Source: Allomuricauda sp. (GTDB lineage: Bacteria; Bacteroidota; Bacteroidia; Flavobacteriales; Flavobacteriaceae). From it: a DNA stretch of 64,000 bases. Below are positions 28,233-35,019 of this stretch, piece after piece. Every line of letters starts with the position of its first letter. Within the stretch, counting starts at the first letter, position 1. Under the pieces are notes generated by a model. That model searched no databases. It saw only the letters and a program-made list of their open reading frames with translations, and had not been told where the DNA came from. The stretch covers positions 1 through 64,000 of the forward strand of contig NZ_PABT01000020.1 of the NCBI RefSeq assembly GCF_002699205.1, given 5' to 3'. The position numbers were made by a program, and so were the translations under genes.

Positions 28233-28268
28233 AAAATCCCGCTCGAAAAAAATTTGGGCGGGATTTTT
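28233..28268 (+). terminator. Terminator downstream of yceI
   Basis: AAAATCCCGCTC...GGGCGGGATTTTT. Confidence 0.85.
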
Positions 28269-28287
28269 AATTTTAAACAAAACATTG

Positions 28288-28318
28288 TTGTCCTGTTAAA
28301 AATTCCTCCCTATATTTG
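28288..28318 (+). promoter_or_regulatory. Putative trp operon promoter
   Basis: TTG (28288-28290)-N20-TATATTTG (28311-28318). Confidence 0.75.
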
Positions 28319-28323
28319 AACCA

Positions 28324-28380
28324 ATGATTAACAGAAGAGTAAATATCTGGTGGTGGAATAACTTACGTCAAACGTCGTGA
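28324..28380 (+). CDS. trpL: trp leader peptide MINRRVNIWWWNNLRQTS
   Basis: ATG ATT AAC AGA AGA GTA AAT ATC TGG TGG TGG AAT AAC TTA CGT CAA ACG TCG TGA directly upstream of trpE. Confidence 0.9.
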   Translation: MINRRVNIWWWNNLRQTS

Positions 28381-28403
28381 GCTAGTCCCCATTATAACCA
28401 TAT

Positions 28404-28434
28404 AAAAGGCTTGTCATCACGACAGGCCTTTTTT
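28404..28434 (+). terminator. trp attenuator terminator
   Basis: AAAAGGCTTGTC-ATCAC-GACAGGCCTTTTTT: 12 bp with one G-U, then a U-tract, 20 nt before the trpE ATG. Confidence 0.92.
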
Positions 28435-28453
28435 AATTTATATAAGTACCAAA

Positions 28454-29851
28454 ATGAGTTACACGCTAGATACGCATTACAAAAAAATCCTTGCGGACAC
28501 CATTACCCCCGTGAGTGTTTACCTCAAAATCCGGGACAAGTTCCCAAACAGTATTCTTTTGGAAAGTAGCGACTACCATGCAAACGACAACAGTTTTTCA
28601 TACATCTGCTGCAATCCGATAGCCTCTATCAAGGTAGAGAACGAAACCATTGAGCAACAGTTTCCCGATGGGACCAAGGAAGTAATCGATATTACTCCCG
28701 ATATCGATGTAACCGAAGTGATACACAACTTCAGCAAACAATTTAAAACCACACAGAACGGTTTCAAATTTATATATAGCGGACTTTTTGGCTATATGGC
28801 CTACGATGCCGTTCGCTATTTTGAAGATGTGAAGGTTTCCAAGAAAGATGATTCCGTAAACATTCCGGACATTTATTATGCCGTTTACCAGAACATTATC
28901 GCCATCAACCATTTTAAAAATGAAGCCTATCTGTTCGCACATTGCTATAATTCCGAAAGCAACGTGGATGAGATAGAGCAGCTTTTTAATGTACGTACAT
29001 TTTCTTCCTATAACTTTACTAAAGAAGGACAACCAGAATCCAACCTTAAGGACGAAGATTATAAAGAACAAGTAGAATTGGCCAAAAAGCATTGTCAACG
29101 AGGGGACGTGTTCCAGTTGGTGCTCTCCAGAAGGTTCAAACAAAAATTCAAGGGAGATGAATTCAATGTATATCGTGCACTGCGTTCCATCAACCCCTCC
29201 CCTTACCTCTTCTATTTTGATTACGGCAACTTTAAAATATTTGGCAGCTCCCCCGAAGCACAGCTGATCGTGAAAGATGGGAAAGCGGAAATCCATCCCA
29301 TAGCTGGAACGTACAAACGTACTGGAAACGATGAAAAAGATGCCGAATTGGCCAAAAAATTGGCACAGGACAAAAAAGAGAACAGCGAACACGTGATGCT
29401 GGTGGACTTGGCACGAAACGACCTAAGTAGAAACGGAAACACGGTAAATGTGGACACGTATAGGGAAGTGCAATACTTTTCACACGTTATCCACTTGGTA
29501 TCCAAAGTAACTGGGCAAAAGAAAGAAGATAGTACCACCATGAAAGTGGTCGCCGATACGTTCCCGGCCGGAACTCTGAGCGGAGCACCCAAGCACATGG
29601 CCATGCAACTGATAGAAAAGTATGAAAAAACAAGTAGATCGTTCTACGGAGGGGCAATTGGATTTATGGATTTTGAAGGCAACTTCAACCATGCCATTAT
29701 GATCCGGACTTTCTTGAGCAAGGACCATGAACTATTTTACCAAGCTGGTGCTGGCCTAGTTGCCGCCTCCGACCCAAACGACGAACTCCAAGAAACATAC
29801 AACAAATTGGGCGCACTCAACAAAGCGCTGGAAATTGCCGAAACAATCTAA
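28454..29851 (+). CDS. trpE: Anthranilate synthase component I
   Basis: 465 aa; chorismate-binding motif GTYKRTGNDEKDAELAKKLAQDKKENSEHVMLVDLARND. Confidence 0.96.
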   Translation: MSYTLDTHYKKILADTITPVSVYLKIRDKFPNSILLESSDYHANDNSFSYICCNPIASIKVENETIEQQFPDGTKEVIDITPDIDVTEVIHNFSKQFKTTQNGFKFIYSGLFGYMAYDAVRYFEDVKVSKKDDSVNIPDIYYAVYQNIIAINHFKNEAYLFAHCYNSESNVDEIEQLFNVRTFSSYNFTKEGQPESNLKDEDYKEQVELAKKHCQRGDVFQLVLSRRFKQKFKGDEFNVYRALRSINPSPYLFYFDYGNFKIFGSSPEAQLIVKDGKAEIHPIAGTYKRTGNDEKDAELAKKLAQDKKENSEHVMLVDLARNDLSRNGNTVNVDTYREVQYFSHVIHLVSKVTGQKKEDSTTMKVVADTFPAGTLSGAPKHMAMQLIEKYEKTSRSFYGGAIGFMDFEGNFNHAIMIRTFLSKDHELFYQAGAGLVAASDPNDELQETYNKLGALNKALEIAETI

Positions 29852-29853
29852 CC

Positions 29854-30423
29854 ATGGGAAAGAAGATTTTAATGATAAACAACTATGATAGTTTCACCTA
29901 TAACTTGGTTCACTATCTGGAAGATTTGGATTGCGAGGTAACCGTCAAACGGAACGACCAACTTACCTTGGACGACGTTGAACCCTTTGAATATATCGTT
30001 TTGTCCCCCGGGCCAGGAATCCCTGATGAGGCTGGACTTCTAAAAGACATTATCAAAACCTACGCTCCTACCAAACGAATTTTTGGGGTTTGTTTGGGAT
30101 TGCAGGCCATAGGTGAAGTTTTTGGGGGCACTTTGATCAATCTCGACCAAGTATATCACGGGGTGGACACTACAATTACCGTTACCAAAGATGACCCAAT
30201 TTATAAGGACATGCCTACAAAGCTTCAAGTAGGGCGATACCATTCATGGGTAGTGGATGAGGATTTACCCGATACATTGGAAACCACCGCAGTGGATGAA
30301 AACGGACAAGTCATGTCCCTCAGACATAAAGAATATGACGTGACCGCCGTACAGTTTCACCCAGAATCCGTGCTGACGCCCGAGGGTAAACAAATGTTGA
30401 AAAATTGGCTTAATAGAAAATAG
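29854..30423 (+). CDS. trpG: Anthranilate synthase component II (glutamine amidotransferase)
   Basis: NYDSFTYNLVHYLE, SPGPGIPDEAG, GVCLGLQAIGE, VQFHPESVLTPEG. Confidence 0.96.
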   Translation: MGKKILMINNYDSFTYNLVHYLEDLDCEVTVKRNDQLTLDDVEPFEYIVLSPGPGIPDEAGLLKDIIKTYAPTKRIFGVCLGLQAIGEVFGGTLINLDQVYHGVDTTITVTKDDPIYKDMPTKLQVGRYHSWVVDEDLPDTLETTAVDENGQVMSLRHKEYDVTAVQFHPESVLTPEGKQMLKNWLNRK

Positions 30424-30487
30424 AACAGACATATGAGAATTGAGAATTCTCTATAACCTAACATCTAATCTCTCACATCTAAGAAAA

Positions 30488-31483
30488 ATGAAAGAGACAT
30501 TAAATAAATTGATCAATCACGAAATCCTCCCTAAGGAAGAAGCCAAACAAATTTTGGTGAATATCGCCAAGGGAGATTATAACACTTCACAAATCGCTGC
30601 ATTTTTAACAGTTTACATGATGCGAAGTGTAACCATTGAAGAACTGGAAGGCTTTAGGGATGCCCTATTGGAACTATGTTTGGCCATTGATCTTGCCGAA
30701 TATAATCCTATTGACCTCTGCGGAACCGGAGGGGACGGAAAGGACACTTTCAATATCTCCACACTGGCCTCATTTGTAACTGCCGGGGCCGGAATCCATG
30801 TGACCAAACATGGAAATTATGGCGTTTCCTCCAAATGTGGCAGTAGCAATGTGATGGAGTTCTTGGGCATCAAATTTAGTAACGATGCCGATTTCCTAAA
30901 GAAAACCATTGAAGAAGCGGGAATCTGTGTGTTGCACGCCCCACTCTTTCACCCTGCTATGAAAAACGTGGCCCCCATTCGAAGGGAACTGGCCGTAAAA
31001 ACTTTTTTCAATATGTTGGGACCTATGGTAAATCCAGCATTTCCAAAAAATCAAATGGTAGGGGTGTTCAATCTGGAATTGGCTAGAATGTATGGGTATC
31101 TTTATCAAAATACAGACAAAAATTTCACCATATTAAATGCTTTGGACGGGTATGATGAAATTTCGTTGACCGGAGATACAAAAACCATTTCCAACAATAC
31201 CGAAGCTATGTTGACACCAAAGGATTTTGGAGTGGAAAAAGTTTCCCAACAAGAAATAGTAGGTGGTGAAGATGTGGCCGAATCCGCCCAAATATTCATG
31301 AGTATTTTGCAAGGAAAAGGTACCGAAGCGCAGAACAATGTAGTTTGTGCCAATGCAGGGGTCGCCATTGCCACAGTACAAGGCATCACACCCAAAGAAG
31401 GCTTTGAAAAGGCAAAAGAATCTTTATTTAGTGGCAAAGGTTTGCAAGCGTTACGAAAATTACAGGATTTGAGCAGAAACTAG
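30488..31483 (+). CDS. trpD: Anthranilate phosphoribosyltransferase
   Basis: DLCGTGGDGKDTFNIST, KHGNYGVSSKCGSSNVMEFLG. Start set at MKETLNKLI. Confidence 0.96.
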   Translation: MKETLNKLINHEILPKEEAKQILVNIAKGDYNTSQIAAFLTVYMMRSVTIEELEGFRDALLELCLAIDLAEYNPIDLCGTGGDGKDTFNISTLASFVTAGAGIHVTKHGNYGVSSKCGSSNVMEFLGIKFSNDADFLKKTIEEAGICVLHAPLFHPAMKNVAPIRRELAVKTFFNMLGPMVNPAFPKNQMVGVFNLELARMYGYLYQNTDKNFTILNALDGYDEISLTGDTKTISNNTEAMLTPKDFGVEKVSQQEIVGGEDVAESAQIFMSILQGKGTEAQNNVVCANAGVAIATVQGITPKEGFEKAKESLFSGKGLQALRKLQDLSRN

Positions 31484-31496
31484 TGTCTCCCCTGGT

Positions 31497-31530
31497 ACAG
31501 AAAGATTCTTCACCATGTTCAGAATAACAA
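31497..31530. repeat. Relic of a dispersed REP-like repeat in the trpD-trpC gap
   Basis: ACAGAAAGATTCTTCACCATGTTCAGAATAACA; reverse complement TGTTATTCTGAACATGGTGAAGAATCT resembles repeats I recall from Bacteroidota intergenic regions. Confidence 0.5.
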
Positions 31531-31534
31531 GAAA

Positions 31535-32320
31535 ATGAATATACTAGACAAAATAGTCGCCGATAAACGCAAAGAGGTCGATTTAAAAAAATCACTGATT
31601 ACCCTTCCCCAATTGGAATCCTCGGTAATGATGGAACGCACCTCGGTTTCTTTGGCAGAAATGCTGCGAAAGAGCAACTCGGGGGTCATTGCAGAGCATA
31701 AACGTCGTTCTCCTTCAAAATCGGTTATTAACCAAAATCTGAGTGTACAGGATGTTGCCAAAGGTTACGCCGATGCTGGTGCCTGTGGCATATCGGTGCT
31801 TACGGATGGCAAATTTTTCGGTGGCTCCTTGGATGATCTGGTCCTAGCACGAGCAGCTACGAATATTCCCATTTTGCGAAAAGAATTCATCATAGATGAA
31901 TATCAAATCGTGGAAGCCAAAGCCTATGGCGCCGATGTAATTTTGTTGATTGCCGCCATTTTATCCAACAAAGAAATCAAAAGCCTGTCCGAATTGGCCA
32001 AAGGACTGGGATTGGATGTGCTGCTCGAAGTACACAACGAGGAGGAACTTGAAAAATCCCTAATGCCCAGTTTGGATATGTTGGGAGTGAACAACCGTAA
32101 CCTAAAAACATTTGATGTTGATTTGAACACCAGCAAATCCCTTTCCGTGAAAATACCCGATGATTTTGTGAAAGTTTCCGAGAGCGGCATAAGTTCTGTG
32201 GAAGCTATAAGAGATTTGAAAGAATACGGCTATCAAGGTTTTTTGATCGGGGAAAATTTTATGAAAACGGACAATCCGGGAGTAAGTGCTTCCGGATTCA
32301 TTAAAAAATTAGAAGCGTGA
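31535..32320 (+). CDS. trpC: Indole-3-glycerol phosphate synthase
   Basis: IAEHKRRSPSKSVIN...ISVLTDGKFFGGSLDDL...LRKEFIIDEYQI. Confidence 0.96.
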   Translation: MNILDKIVADKRKEVDLKKSLITLPQLESSVMMERTSVSLAEMLRKSNSGVIAEHKRRSPSKSVINQNLSVQDVAKGYADAGACGISVLTDGKFFGGSLDDLVLARAATNIPILRKEFIIDEYQIVEAKAYGADVILLIAAILSNKEIKSLSELAKGLGLDVLLEVHNEEELEKSLMPSLDMLGVNNRNLKTFDVDLNTSKSLSVKIPDDFVKVSESGISSVEAIRDLKEYGYQGFLIGENFMKTDNPGVSASGFIKKLEA

Positions 32321-32979
32321 AACTAAAGGTCTGCGGCATGAACCATAATCCCACCGAGGTTGCTCAATTACAACCCGATTATTTGGGCTTTATATTCTGG
32401 GAACCGTCCTCTAGATATTTTTCTGGAGCAATGCCGGAATTACCCAACTCCATTAAAAAAGTGGGGGTTTTTGTGGATGCACCTTTGGATGAAGTATTGG
32501 CGAAAGTCGATTATTATCAATTAGATGCCGTACAACTCCATGGAAATGAAAGTGCTGAGTATTGTAAATCATTGCGTCACCCCGAACTGGTTTCGGGGTC
32601 GCACACGAGTGAGATGCTGAATCAGGTTCAGCATGACGAATTAGACATCATCAAAGTATTTTCCATCAAAGATGATTTTGATTTTGATGTTTTAAAAGAT
32701 TATGAAGAAGTCTGTGATTATTTTCTGTTCGACACCAAAGGAAAACTTCCCGGTGGCAATGGCTATACGTTTGATTGGTCCGTTTTGGAAAAATATCCCT
32801 CCGACAAACCCTACTTTTTAAGTGGAGGAATCGGTCTGGACTCAAAAGAAGAATTAAAGACGTTTATTGAAAGTCCTACATCAAAACATTGCCATGCAAT
32901 CGACGTGAACAGTAAATTTGAAATTGAACCTGGACTAAAAAATATTGAACATTTAAAAACATTGAAAGCGTTGCTCTAA
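32317..32979 (+). CDS. trpF: Phosphoribosylanthranilate isomerase, with an in-frame repeat-encoded insertion
   Basis: [27 protein letters not shown]...AVQLHGNE...[22 protein letters not shown] start overlaps the trpC stop. Confidence 0.94.
32575..32638. repeat. REP-like double-hairpin palindromic element inserted in trpF
   Basis: CGTCA/TGACG termini; internal hairpins CCCCGAA-CTGGT-TTCGGGG and ATGCTGAA-TCAGG-TTCAGCAT; encodes [22 protein letters not shown]. Confidence 0.85.
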
Positions 32980-33007
32980 GCAGCCCAAAATATTAAATCG
33001 AAAACCA

Positions 33008-34192
33008 ATGAAGAGCTATCATGCAGATGAACGGGGGTATTATGGTGAGTTTGGAGGGGCTTTTATTCCCGAAATGCTCTACCCCAATTGTGAAGAGCTA
33101 CGGCAGAACTATCTACGTATTATGCAGGAACCATCCTTTAAGGATGAGTTTCATCAATTGCTGAAGGATTATGTGGGAAGGCCAACTCCCCTTTATTTTG
33201 CCAAACGCCTATCCGAAAAATACAATACCAAAATTTATCTCAAAAGAGAAGACCTGTGCCATACCGGTGCCCATAAAGTGAACAACACCATCGGGCAAAT
33301 TCTGATGGCCAAAAAGTTGGGCAAAAATCGAATTATCGCAGAAACAGGAGCGGGTCAACATGGAGTGGCCACCGCTACCGTTTGCGCCCTTATGGGGATT
33401 GAGTGCGTGGTTTATATGGGAGAAATAGATATTGCCCGCCAAGCACCAAACGTTGCCCGGATGAAAATGTTGGGTGCAGAGGTGAGACCGGCCACATCTG
33501 GCAGTAAAACCTTGAAAGATGCCACCAACGAAGCTATCCGTGATTGGATCAACAATCCTGTGGACACGCATTACATTATCGGTTCCGTGGTTGGTCCACA
33601 TCCCTACCCGGATATGGTCGCTAGGTTCCAATCGGTGATTTCCGAGGAAATCAAAAACCAGCTTCAAGAAAAAGAAGGACGGGAAAATCCAGATTATGTG
33701 GTGGCCTGTGTTGGAGGAGGAAGTAATGCCGCCGGTGCTTTCTATCATTATTTGGATACTCCGGAAGTGGGGATTATTGCCGTGGAAGCGGCCGGAAAAG
33801 GTATTCATTCCGGTGAAAGTGCAGCTACCTCCGCTTTGGGAAAAATAGGCATTATCCATGGAAGCAAAACATTGTTGATGCAGACCCAAGATGGTCAGAT
33901 TACGGAGCCCTACTCTATTTCGGCAGGTTTGGATTATCCCGGCGTTGGCCCCATGCATGCACATTTGTACGCATCGGGCAGAGGCGAATTTATTTCCATT
34001 ACGGATGATGACGCCATGAATGCAGGTATGGAACTCTGTAAACTAGAAGGAATCATTCCTGCCATTGAATCCTCCCATGCCTTGGCCATTTTTGAGGACA
34101 GGAAATTCAATCCAGATGATGTGGTAGTGATCAACCTATCCGGACGTGGCGACAAGGATTTACAGAACTATATTGATTATTTTAAATTATAG
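33008..34192 (+). CDS. trpB: Tryptophan synthase beta chain
   Basis: 394 aa; [32 protein letters not shown]. Confidence 0.98.
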
Positions 34193-34257
34193 ATGTCAGC
34201 TATCAGATTTAAGACCCCAGTCTCTATTCTCATGTCTCACATCTCAAATCTTGTTTT

Positions 34258-35019
34258 ATGAACAGAATCAAACAAAAACTACAGGAGGATAAAAAAATCC
34301 TTTCCATATACTTTACAGCCGGATATCCCCATTTGGATGACACAATAAAAATTATCCAGGATCTGGAAAAAAACGGTGTGGACCTTATAGAAATTGGCTT
34401 GCCATTCAGCGATCCATTGGCCGATGGCCCCACCATTCAGGCGAGTTCCACCGCAGCCCTAAAAAACGGGATGAACACGGCCTTGCTTTTTGAGCAATTA
34501 AAAGATATTCGAAAAACAGTTTCCATTCCATTGATTTTGATGGGATATTTTAACCCCGTGCTCCAATATGGCGTGGAGGAATTTTGTGCCAAATGTGAAG
34601 AAATAGGTATTGATGGCATCATTCTCCCGGATTTGCCCTTGGATGTTTATCAAGAAGAGTACGAAGTTATTTTCAAAAAACATGGGCTGATCAACGTCTT
34701 TTTGATCACTCCACAAACCAGTGATGAACGTATCAAAGATATTGACAGTGCTTCCGATGGATTTATCTACATGGTGAGTTCAGCAAGTACTACTGGGGCA
34801 AAACAAGGTTTTGGCAAGGAACAATCAGACTATTTTGACCGCATTGCCGATATGAACCTGAACAACCCACAAATAGTTGGTTTCGGCATTAGCAATGCAG
34901 AAACTTTTGGCCAAGCGACCCAAAAAGCCAAAGGTGCCATCATCGGTTCCGCCTTCATCAAACATTTAACAGAAAATGGAGTCAATGGTATTGGTGACTT
35001 TGTGAAGCAAATTCGTTAA
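34258..35019 (+). CDS. trpA: Tryptophan synthase alpha chain
   Basis: IEIGLPFSDPLADGPTIQASS, LPDLP, GFGISNAE. Confidence 0.97.
   Translation: MNRIKQKLQEDKKILSIYFTAGYPHLDDTIKIIQDLEKNGVDLIEIGLPFSDPLADGPTIQASSTAALKNGMNTALLFEQLKDIRKTVSIPLILMGYFNPVLQYGVEEFCAKCEEIGIDGIILPDLPLDVYQEEYEVIFKKHGLINVFLITPQTSDERIKDIDSASDGFIYMVSSASTTGAKQGFGKEQSDYFDRIADMNLNNPQIVGFGISNAETFGQATQKAKGAIIGSAFIKHLTENGVNGIGDFVKQIR

Follow-up and report, generated by a model that had tools for sequence, protein, structure and literature searches.

A Bacteroid-trp leader in Allomuricauda as a probable ribosome-mediated attenuator of trp transcription

The trp operon in the 64,000-nucleotide stretch of Allomuricauda sp. DNA analyzed here (the window) is preceded by a member of the Bacteroid-trp RNA family. 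Comparison across relatives together with RNA folding supports the view, held here at a probability of about 0.92, that this element is a classical ribosome-mediated transcription attenuator. Such a mechanism had been proposed from the sequence in a preliminary description and is very likely right. The attenuator family itself is already known; what is added is covariation, an antiterminator missing from the Rfam model, the terminator loop and 3′ arm as the target of that antiterminator, and a predicted near-leaderless start. The family entered the literature in 2010 as a probable cis-regulator, and the comparison now supplies it with a complete, testable mechanism. The features are as follows.

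28287–28290, forward strand: −33-like element (GTTG), a weak match; relatives have a conserved TTTG about 20–23 nt before the −7 box.
28311–28318, forward strand: −7 box TATATTTG (Bacteroidota sigma-A consensus TAHHTTTG), from sequence, relatives and PMC6847099.
28323–28324, forward strand: predicted transcription start, 0–1 nt before the leader ATG, placed by F. johnsoniae spacing.
28324–28380, forward strand: open reading frame of the trp leader peptide MINRRVNIWWWNNLRQTS, with its stop codon.
28348–28356, forward strand: three tandem Trp codons (TGG TGG TGG), putative ribosome stall site.
28350–28392, forward strand: 1:2 pause or anti-antiterminator hairpin, from folding, the Rfam structure and covariation.
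28374–28380, forward strand: region 2 (GTCGTGA), 5′ strand of the antiterminator, holding the UGA stop; conserved core UCGUGA.
28404–28434, forward strand: intrinsic terminator, with a 12-pair stem (28404–28432), a loop (28416–28420) and a T run to 28434; from folding, and kept in all parsed loci.
28417–28423, forward strand: region 3 (TCACGAC), antiterminator partner of region 2; complementarity kept through sequence changes in relatives.
28454–29851, forward strand: trpE, the first controlled gene (NCBIfam TIGR00564, E 4.8e-133).
29854–35019, forward strand: trpG, trpD, trpC, trpF, trpB and trpA, each with an NCBIfam match.

The gene order downstream of the leader is trpEGDCFBA, and sequence comparison of TrpE places Flagellimonas, Allomuricauda and Muricauda as the closest relatives. 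Positions 28304–28415 match Rfam RF01692 (Bacteroid-trp) over the full model (1–131), scoring 64.4 bits where the cut-off is 49. A match to the same model was found in 210 of 301 Flavobacteriaceae genomes, and in 31 of 297 genomes taken across Bacteroidota. The element shares with Bacteroid-trp the covariance-model family, the phylum (Bacteroidota), the position before trp genes, a short open reading frame with tandem Trp codons, a hairpin and an intrinsic terminator. It differs from the RF01692 model, which has the 1:2 hairpin and ends at the 5′ arm of the terminator, without the terminator 3′ arm and the 2:3 antiterminator. Weak Rfam matches, among them RsaE and Thr_leader, were dismissed, with scores far below cut-off. 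The motif was first reported as a probable cis-regulator (Weinberg et al., 2010; PMC2864571). In Flavobacterium psychrophilum, Bacteroid-trp has been described as an E. coli-like trp leader (PMC6414381), and hints of attenuation by leader peptides have been reported upstream of amino-acid operons (PMC9723704). The preliminary description had listed the open reading frame, the Trp codons, the terminator and the pairing, all of which stand, and had missed the Rfam family and the promoter box at 28311–28318.

The small open reading frame with three consecutive Trp codons is present as described. The comparative set comprised 203 parsed loci, with WWW in 196 and WW in 7, counts that are partly built in because the parser required TGGTGG. 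Independent support therefore comes from genomes without an Rfam match: a WW(W) leader with a terminator was found in 11 of the 11 whose region upstream of trpE was readable. Twenty genomes of the family lack an Rfam match, and 14 of them have trpC. The first Trp codon is the ninth codon of the leader in 184 of the 203 loci, and the leader was found at all 79 nearest named trpE loci having upstream sequence. First-order Markov copies of the window held a mean of 0.27 small WWW reading frames, and a terminator followed one in 0 of 100 copies; the arrangement of leader reading frame, WWW and terminator is not due to chance. Alignment of the regions upstream of trpE had been suggested as a check, with loss of the Trp codons or helices in relatives counting against attenuation. 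No such loss appeared: the Trp codons are kept across the 203 parsed loci and the helices are conserved as well.

These data also bear on whether tryptophan might be sensed without translation of the leader, by a TRAP-type protein, a T-box or TrpR at the promoter, the small reading frame being incidental. A terminator before trpE fits all three alike. However, the conserved Trp codons, the reading frame and the spacing from the Trp codons to region 2 argue against translation-independent sensing, and no Rfam T-box match reached the gathering threshold in the window. Searches of the genome returned no match for TRAP (PF02081), which was detected in the B. subtilis control, and none for TrpR (PF01371). 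Sensing of this kind is extremely improbable.

The ribosome-mediated attenuator requires mutually exclusive helices, and the first of these is the 1:2 pause hairpin. By folding and by the Rfam structure, its upper stem pairs 28362–28367 with 28376–28381, and the Trp codons are paired in its lower stem. Among leaders of the AAY-TTR type, the 28362:28381 pair is C-G in 77, U-A in 19 and A-U in 1, with no mismatches. The pair is not linked by coding: position 28362 is a synonymous third base, in an Asn codon, and 28381 lies immediately downstream of the stop. On the TrpE tree each position changes six times, and five of five independent supported changes agree, a sample of five pairs in which p<0.05 is unreachable. 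Covariation between a synonymous codon base and a base just beyond the stop makes the case for the pause hairpin unusually clean. The preliminary account of the alternative helices held for the 2:3 pairing and the terminator; it had overlooked the 1:2 hairpin and its pairing of the Trp codons.

The strong terminator and the pairing of GTCGTGA with TCACGAC are both present in the window, the latter with 7 of 7 Watson–Crick pairs. As had been noted, the upstream half includes the UGA stop codon of the leader, and the downstream half spans loop and 3′ arm of the terminator; it takes in 28417–28420 of the loop and then 28421–28423, the three bases with which the 3′ arm opens. Folding of 28318–28450, also proposed earlier, gave −35.5 kcal/mol (z = −4.5 against shuffles). 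The core UCGUGA:UCACGA is nearly invariant within the Flavobacteriaceae. Leaders from a different family of the class combine a UAA stop with U in the loop (UGA to UAA, loop C to U); this covariation was set aside as proof of the antiterminator because it reflects too few independent changes. Divergent leaders keep the complementarity with new letters, as in GGATTCAG/CTGAATCC (locus L226) and GCGATGA/TCATCGC (L228), and in L217 the sequence TCGCGA is complementary to itself. Over 12 loci, counted as if unrelated, the combined p value for such complementarity was 1e-10. Two divergent loci, L216 and L116, show loop pairing no better than chance. L116 comes from another family of the order; by eye, its stretch CAAAGTCTT could pair with AAGACTTTG, the 5′ arm of the terminator, an E. 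coli-like layout.

Whether the 2:3 helix is needed at all was also weighed. A leader-peptide attenuator could work through the 1:2 hairpin alone or through coupling to RNA polymerase, with GTCGTGA/TCACGAC a by-product of the terminator's conservation. Little covariation within the core of the 2:3 helix in the Flavobacteriaceae would agree with this, as would equilibrium energies, at which the terminator outweighs that helix. Two points argue instead for the 2:3 helix: L217, L226 and L228 retain the complementarity although their letters are entirely changed, and the conserved loop bases take no part in the terminator stem. An attenuator lacking the 2:3 pairing is very improbable.

The geometry of the leader agrees with the Yanofsky-type logic of stalling and release that had been proposed. 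The first Trp codon lies 27–31 nt from region 2 in 202 loci, and the stop codon mostly falls between 12 nt before and 7 nt after the region 2 core. Folding was carried out with ribosome masks that assume E. coli footprints. At the decisive transcript length, where the RNA reaches the apical 3′ arm of the terminator, 200 of 202 loci fold into the antiterminator when the ribosome mask covers the Trp codons, and 1 of 202 does so when the mask lies at the stop. Any such upstream pairing was seen in 201 of 202 real linkers versus about 18 of 202 shuffled linkers. With no ribosome, the window folds into the 1:2 hairpin. Covariation, mask folding and kept complementarity together support three exclusive helices (1:2, 2:3 and 3:4) selected by ribosome position; the Trp codons, the helices, their exclusivity and their geometry emerge from comparison and modeled folding. 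At equilibrium the finished terminator is favored, with −16.4 kcal/mol against about −14 kcal/mol for the antiterminator, and the choice between them must therefore be made kinetically. At two loci of another family (L199 and L211) the leader reads beyond region 2 and stops 27–30 nt after the core, which may reflect a frameshift or a different layout.

The proposed mechanism would run as follows. When charged tRNA-Trp is ample, the ribosome would reach the leader stop and cover region 2 (28374–28380), allowing the terminator to form. When charged tRNA-Trp is scarce, the ribosome would stall on the three Trp codons and cover region 1 (28362–28367), leaving region 2 free to pair with the emerging terminator loop and the first 3′-arm bases (28417–28423) and to stop the terminator from closing; trpEGDCFBA would then be transcribed. 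Without translation, region 2 would be hidden in the 1:2 hairpin and transcription would end. From this arrangement we infer that the operon responds to tryptophan and that the loop is captured before the 3′ arm. The loop bases would leave the polymerase just before the terminator-closing bases, which would give region 2 a head start.

The element resembles the E. coli trpL attenuator in its tandem Trp codons, the stop near region 2, the 1:2 pause, the 2:3 antiterminator, the 3:4 terminator and the same stalling and release logic. In E. coli, the trp antiterminator occupies the 5′ arm of the terminator; the one described here pairs with the loop and the start of the 3′ arm. A 5′-arm target is a feature of E. 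coli and not of the mechanism as such; among the loci compared, only the divergent L116 is 5′-arm-like, by eye. The present leader also differs in that no Shine-Dalgarno site and no TrpR were found. The ribosomes of Bacteroidota do without Shine-Dalgarno sites, and to our knowledge transcription-translation coupling in this phylum has been little studied.

Judged by its promoter sequence, the leader peptide gene appears to begin right at the 5′ terminus of the RNA. A −7 box lies upstream of the leader in 194 of 203 loci, versus about 10 in shuffles, and in 192 of 195 loci the Trp codons share the frame of the first ATG downstream of the box. The sequence TATATTTG agrees with the flavobacterial −7 consensus, and in F. 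johnsoniae transcription starts 4–5 nt after the box (PMC6847099). The gap from box to leader ATG is 5 nt here, so a 5′ UTR of 0–1 nt is predicted, with the transcript starting at the ATG or 1 nt before it. Across 195 loci this spacing falls into two classes, 4–8 nt in 94 (exactly 5 in 62) and mostly 14–24 nt in the rest. A gap of 4–8 nt was also seen at 65 of the 70 parsed named relatives; near-leaderless spacing is common to about half of the family, and the spacing states have switched at least 10 times on the tree. Upstream, an inverted repeat with a T run at 28234–28266 of the window follows a YceI-like gene and resembles that gene's own terminator, so trp transcription should begin from the box at 28311.

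The true start might instead lie upstream of the TATATTTG box, in which case the transcript would not be leaderless; the attenuator reading would otherwise be unaffected. The start used here is predicted, and leaderless mRNAs make up only 5.5% in F. psychrophilum (PMC9723704). The frequency of the box among the loci, its two spacing classes and the rightly spaced, conserved −33 element nevertheless make an upstream start rather unlikely. A near-leaderless start for the attenuator would have precedents in Sinorhizobium meliloti (PMC7298713) and Streptomyces lividans (PMC8079986), where trp transcripts begin with the ATG of the leader; in S. lividans the encoded peptide, like the present one, has 18 amino acids with WWW. 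The idea of a leaderless trp leader is therefore not new. Those two leaders belong to other phyla and have no evident sequence relation to this one, and their start is mapped whereas here it is predicted. Within the Bacteroid-trp literature, neither the loop and 3′-arm target of the antiterminator nor the near-leaderless promoter spacing is described in the passages of PMC2864571 and PMC6414381 covered here.

On balance, though with some reserve, a broader view is favored: that across Bacteroidota region 2 of Bacteroid-trp captures the emerging loop and then the first 3′-arm bases, not the 5′ arm beforehand, and that many marine flavobacteria read the leader peptide from leaderless RNA. If true, translation from a leaderless RNA would link the first ribosome to the polymerase with no Shine-Dalgarno site involved.

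Two further observations concern insertions at trp loci. In eight close relatives (L118, L124, L127, L129, L132, L134, L151 and L168) the leader at first seemed absent. This was rejected, since the leader is present and separated from trpE by a small gene that lies after the attenuator terminator, at about 1160–1460 in each locus. The inserted gene is GIY-YIG nuclease-like, as judged by eye, with short TTTCCGCGAAGGCGGAAA-like palindromes at its flanks, and is apparently truncated in L168. By its position between terminator and trpE, it would come under trp control. In the window itself, trpF (32578–32640) carries an in-frame insert, RHPELVSGS...MLNQVQHDE in TrpF, composed of two DNA palindromes; the second has 18 copies in the genome (at most 2 mismatches), and its reversed control has 0.
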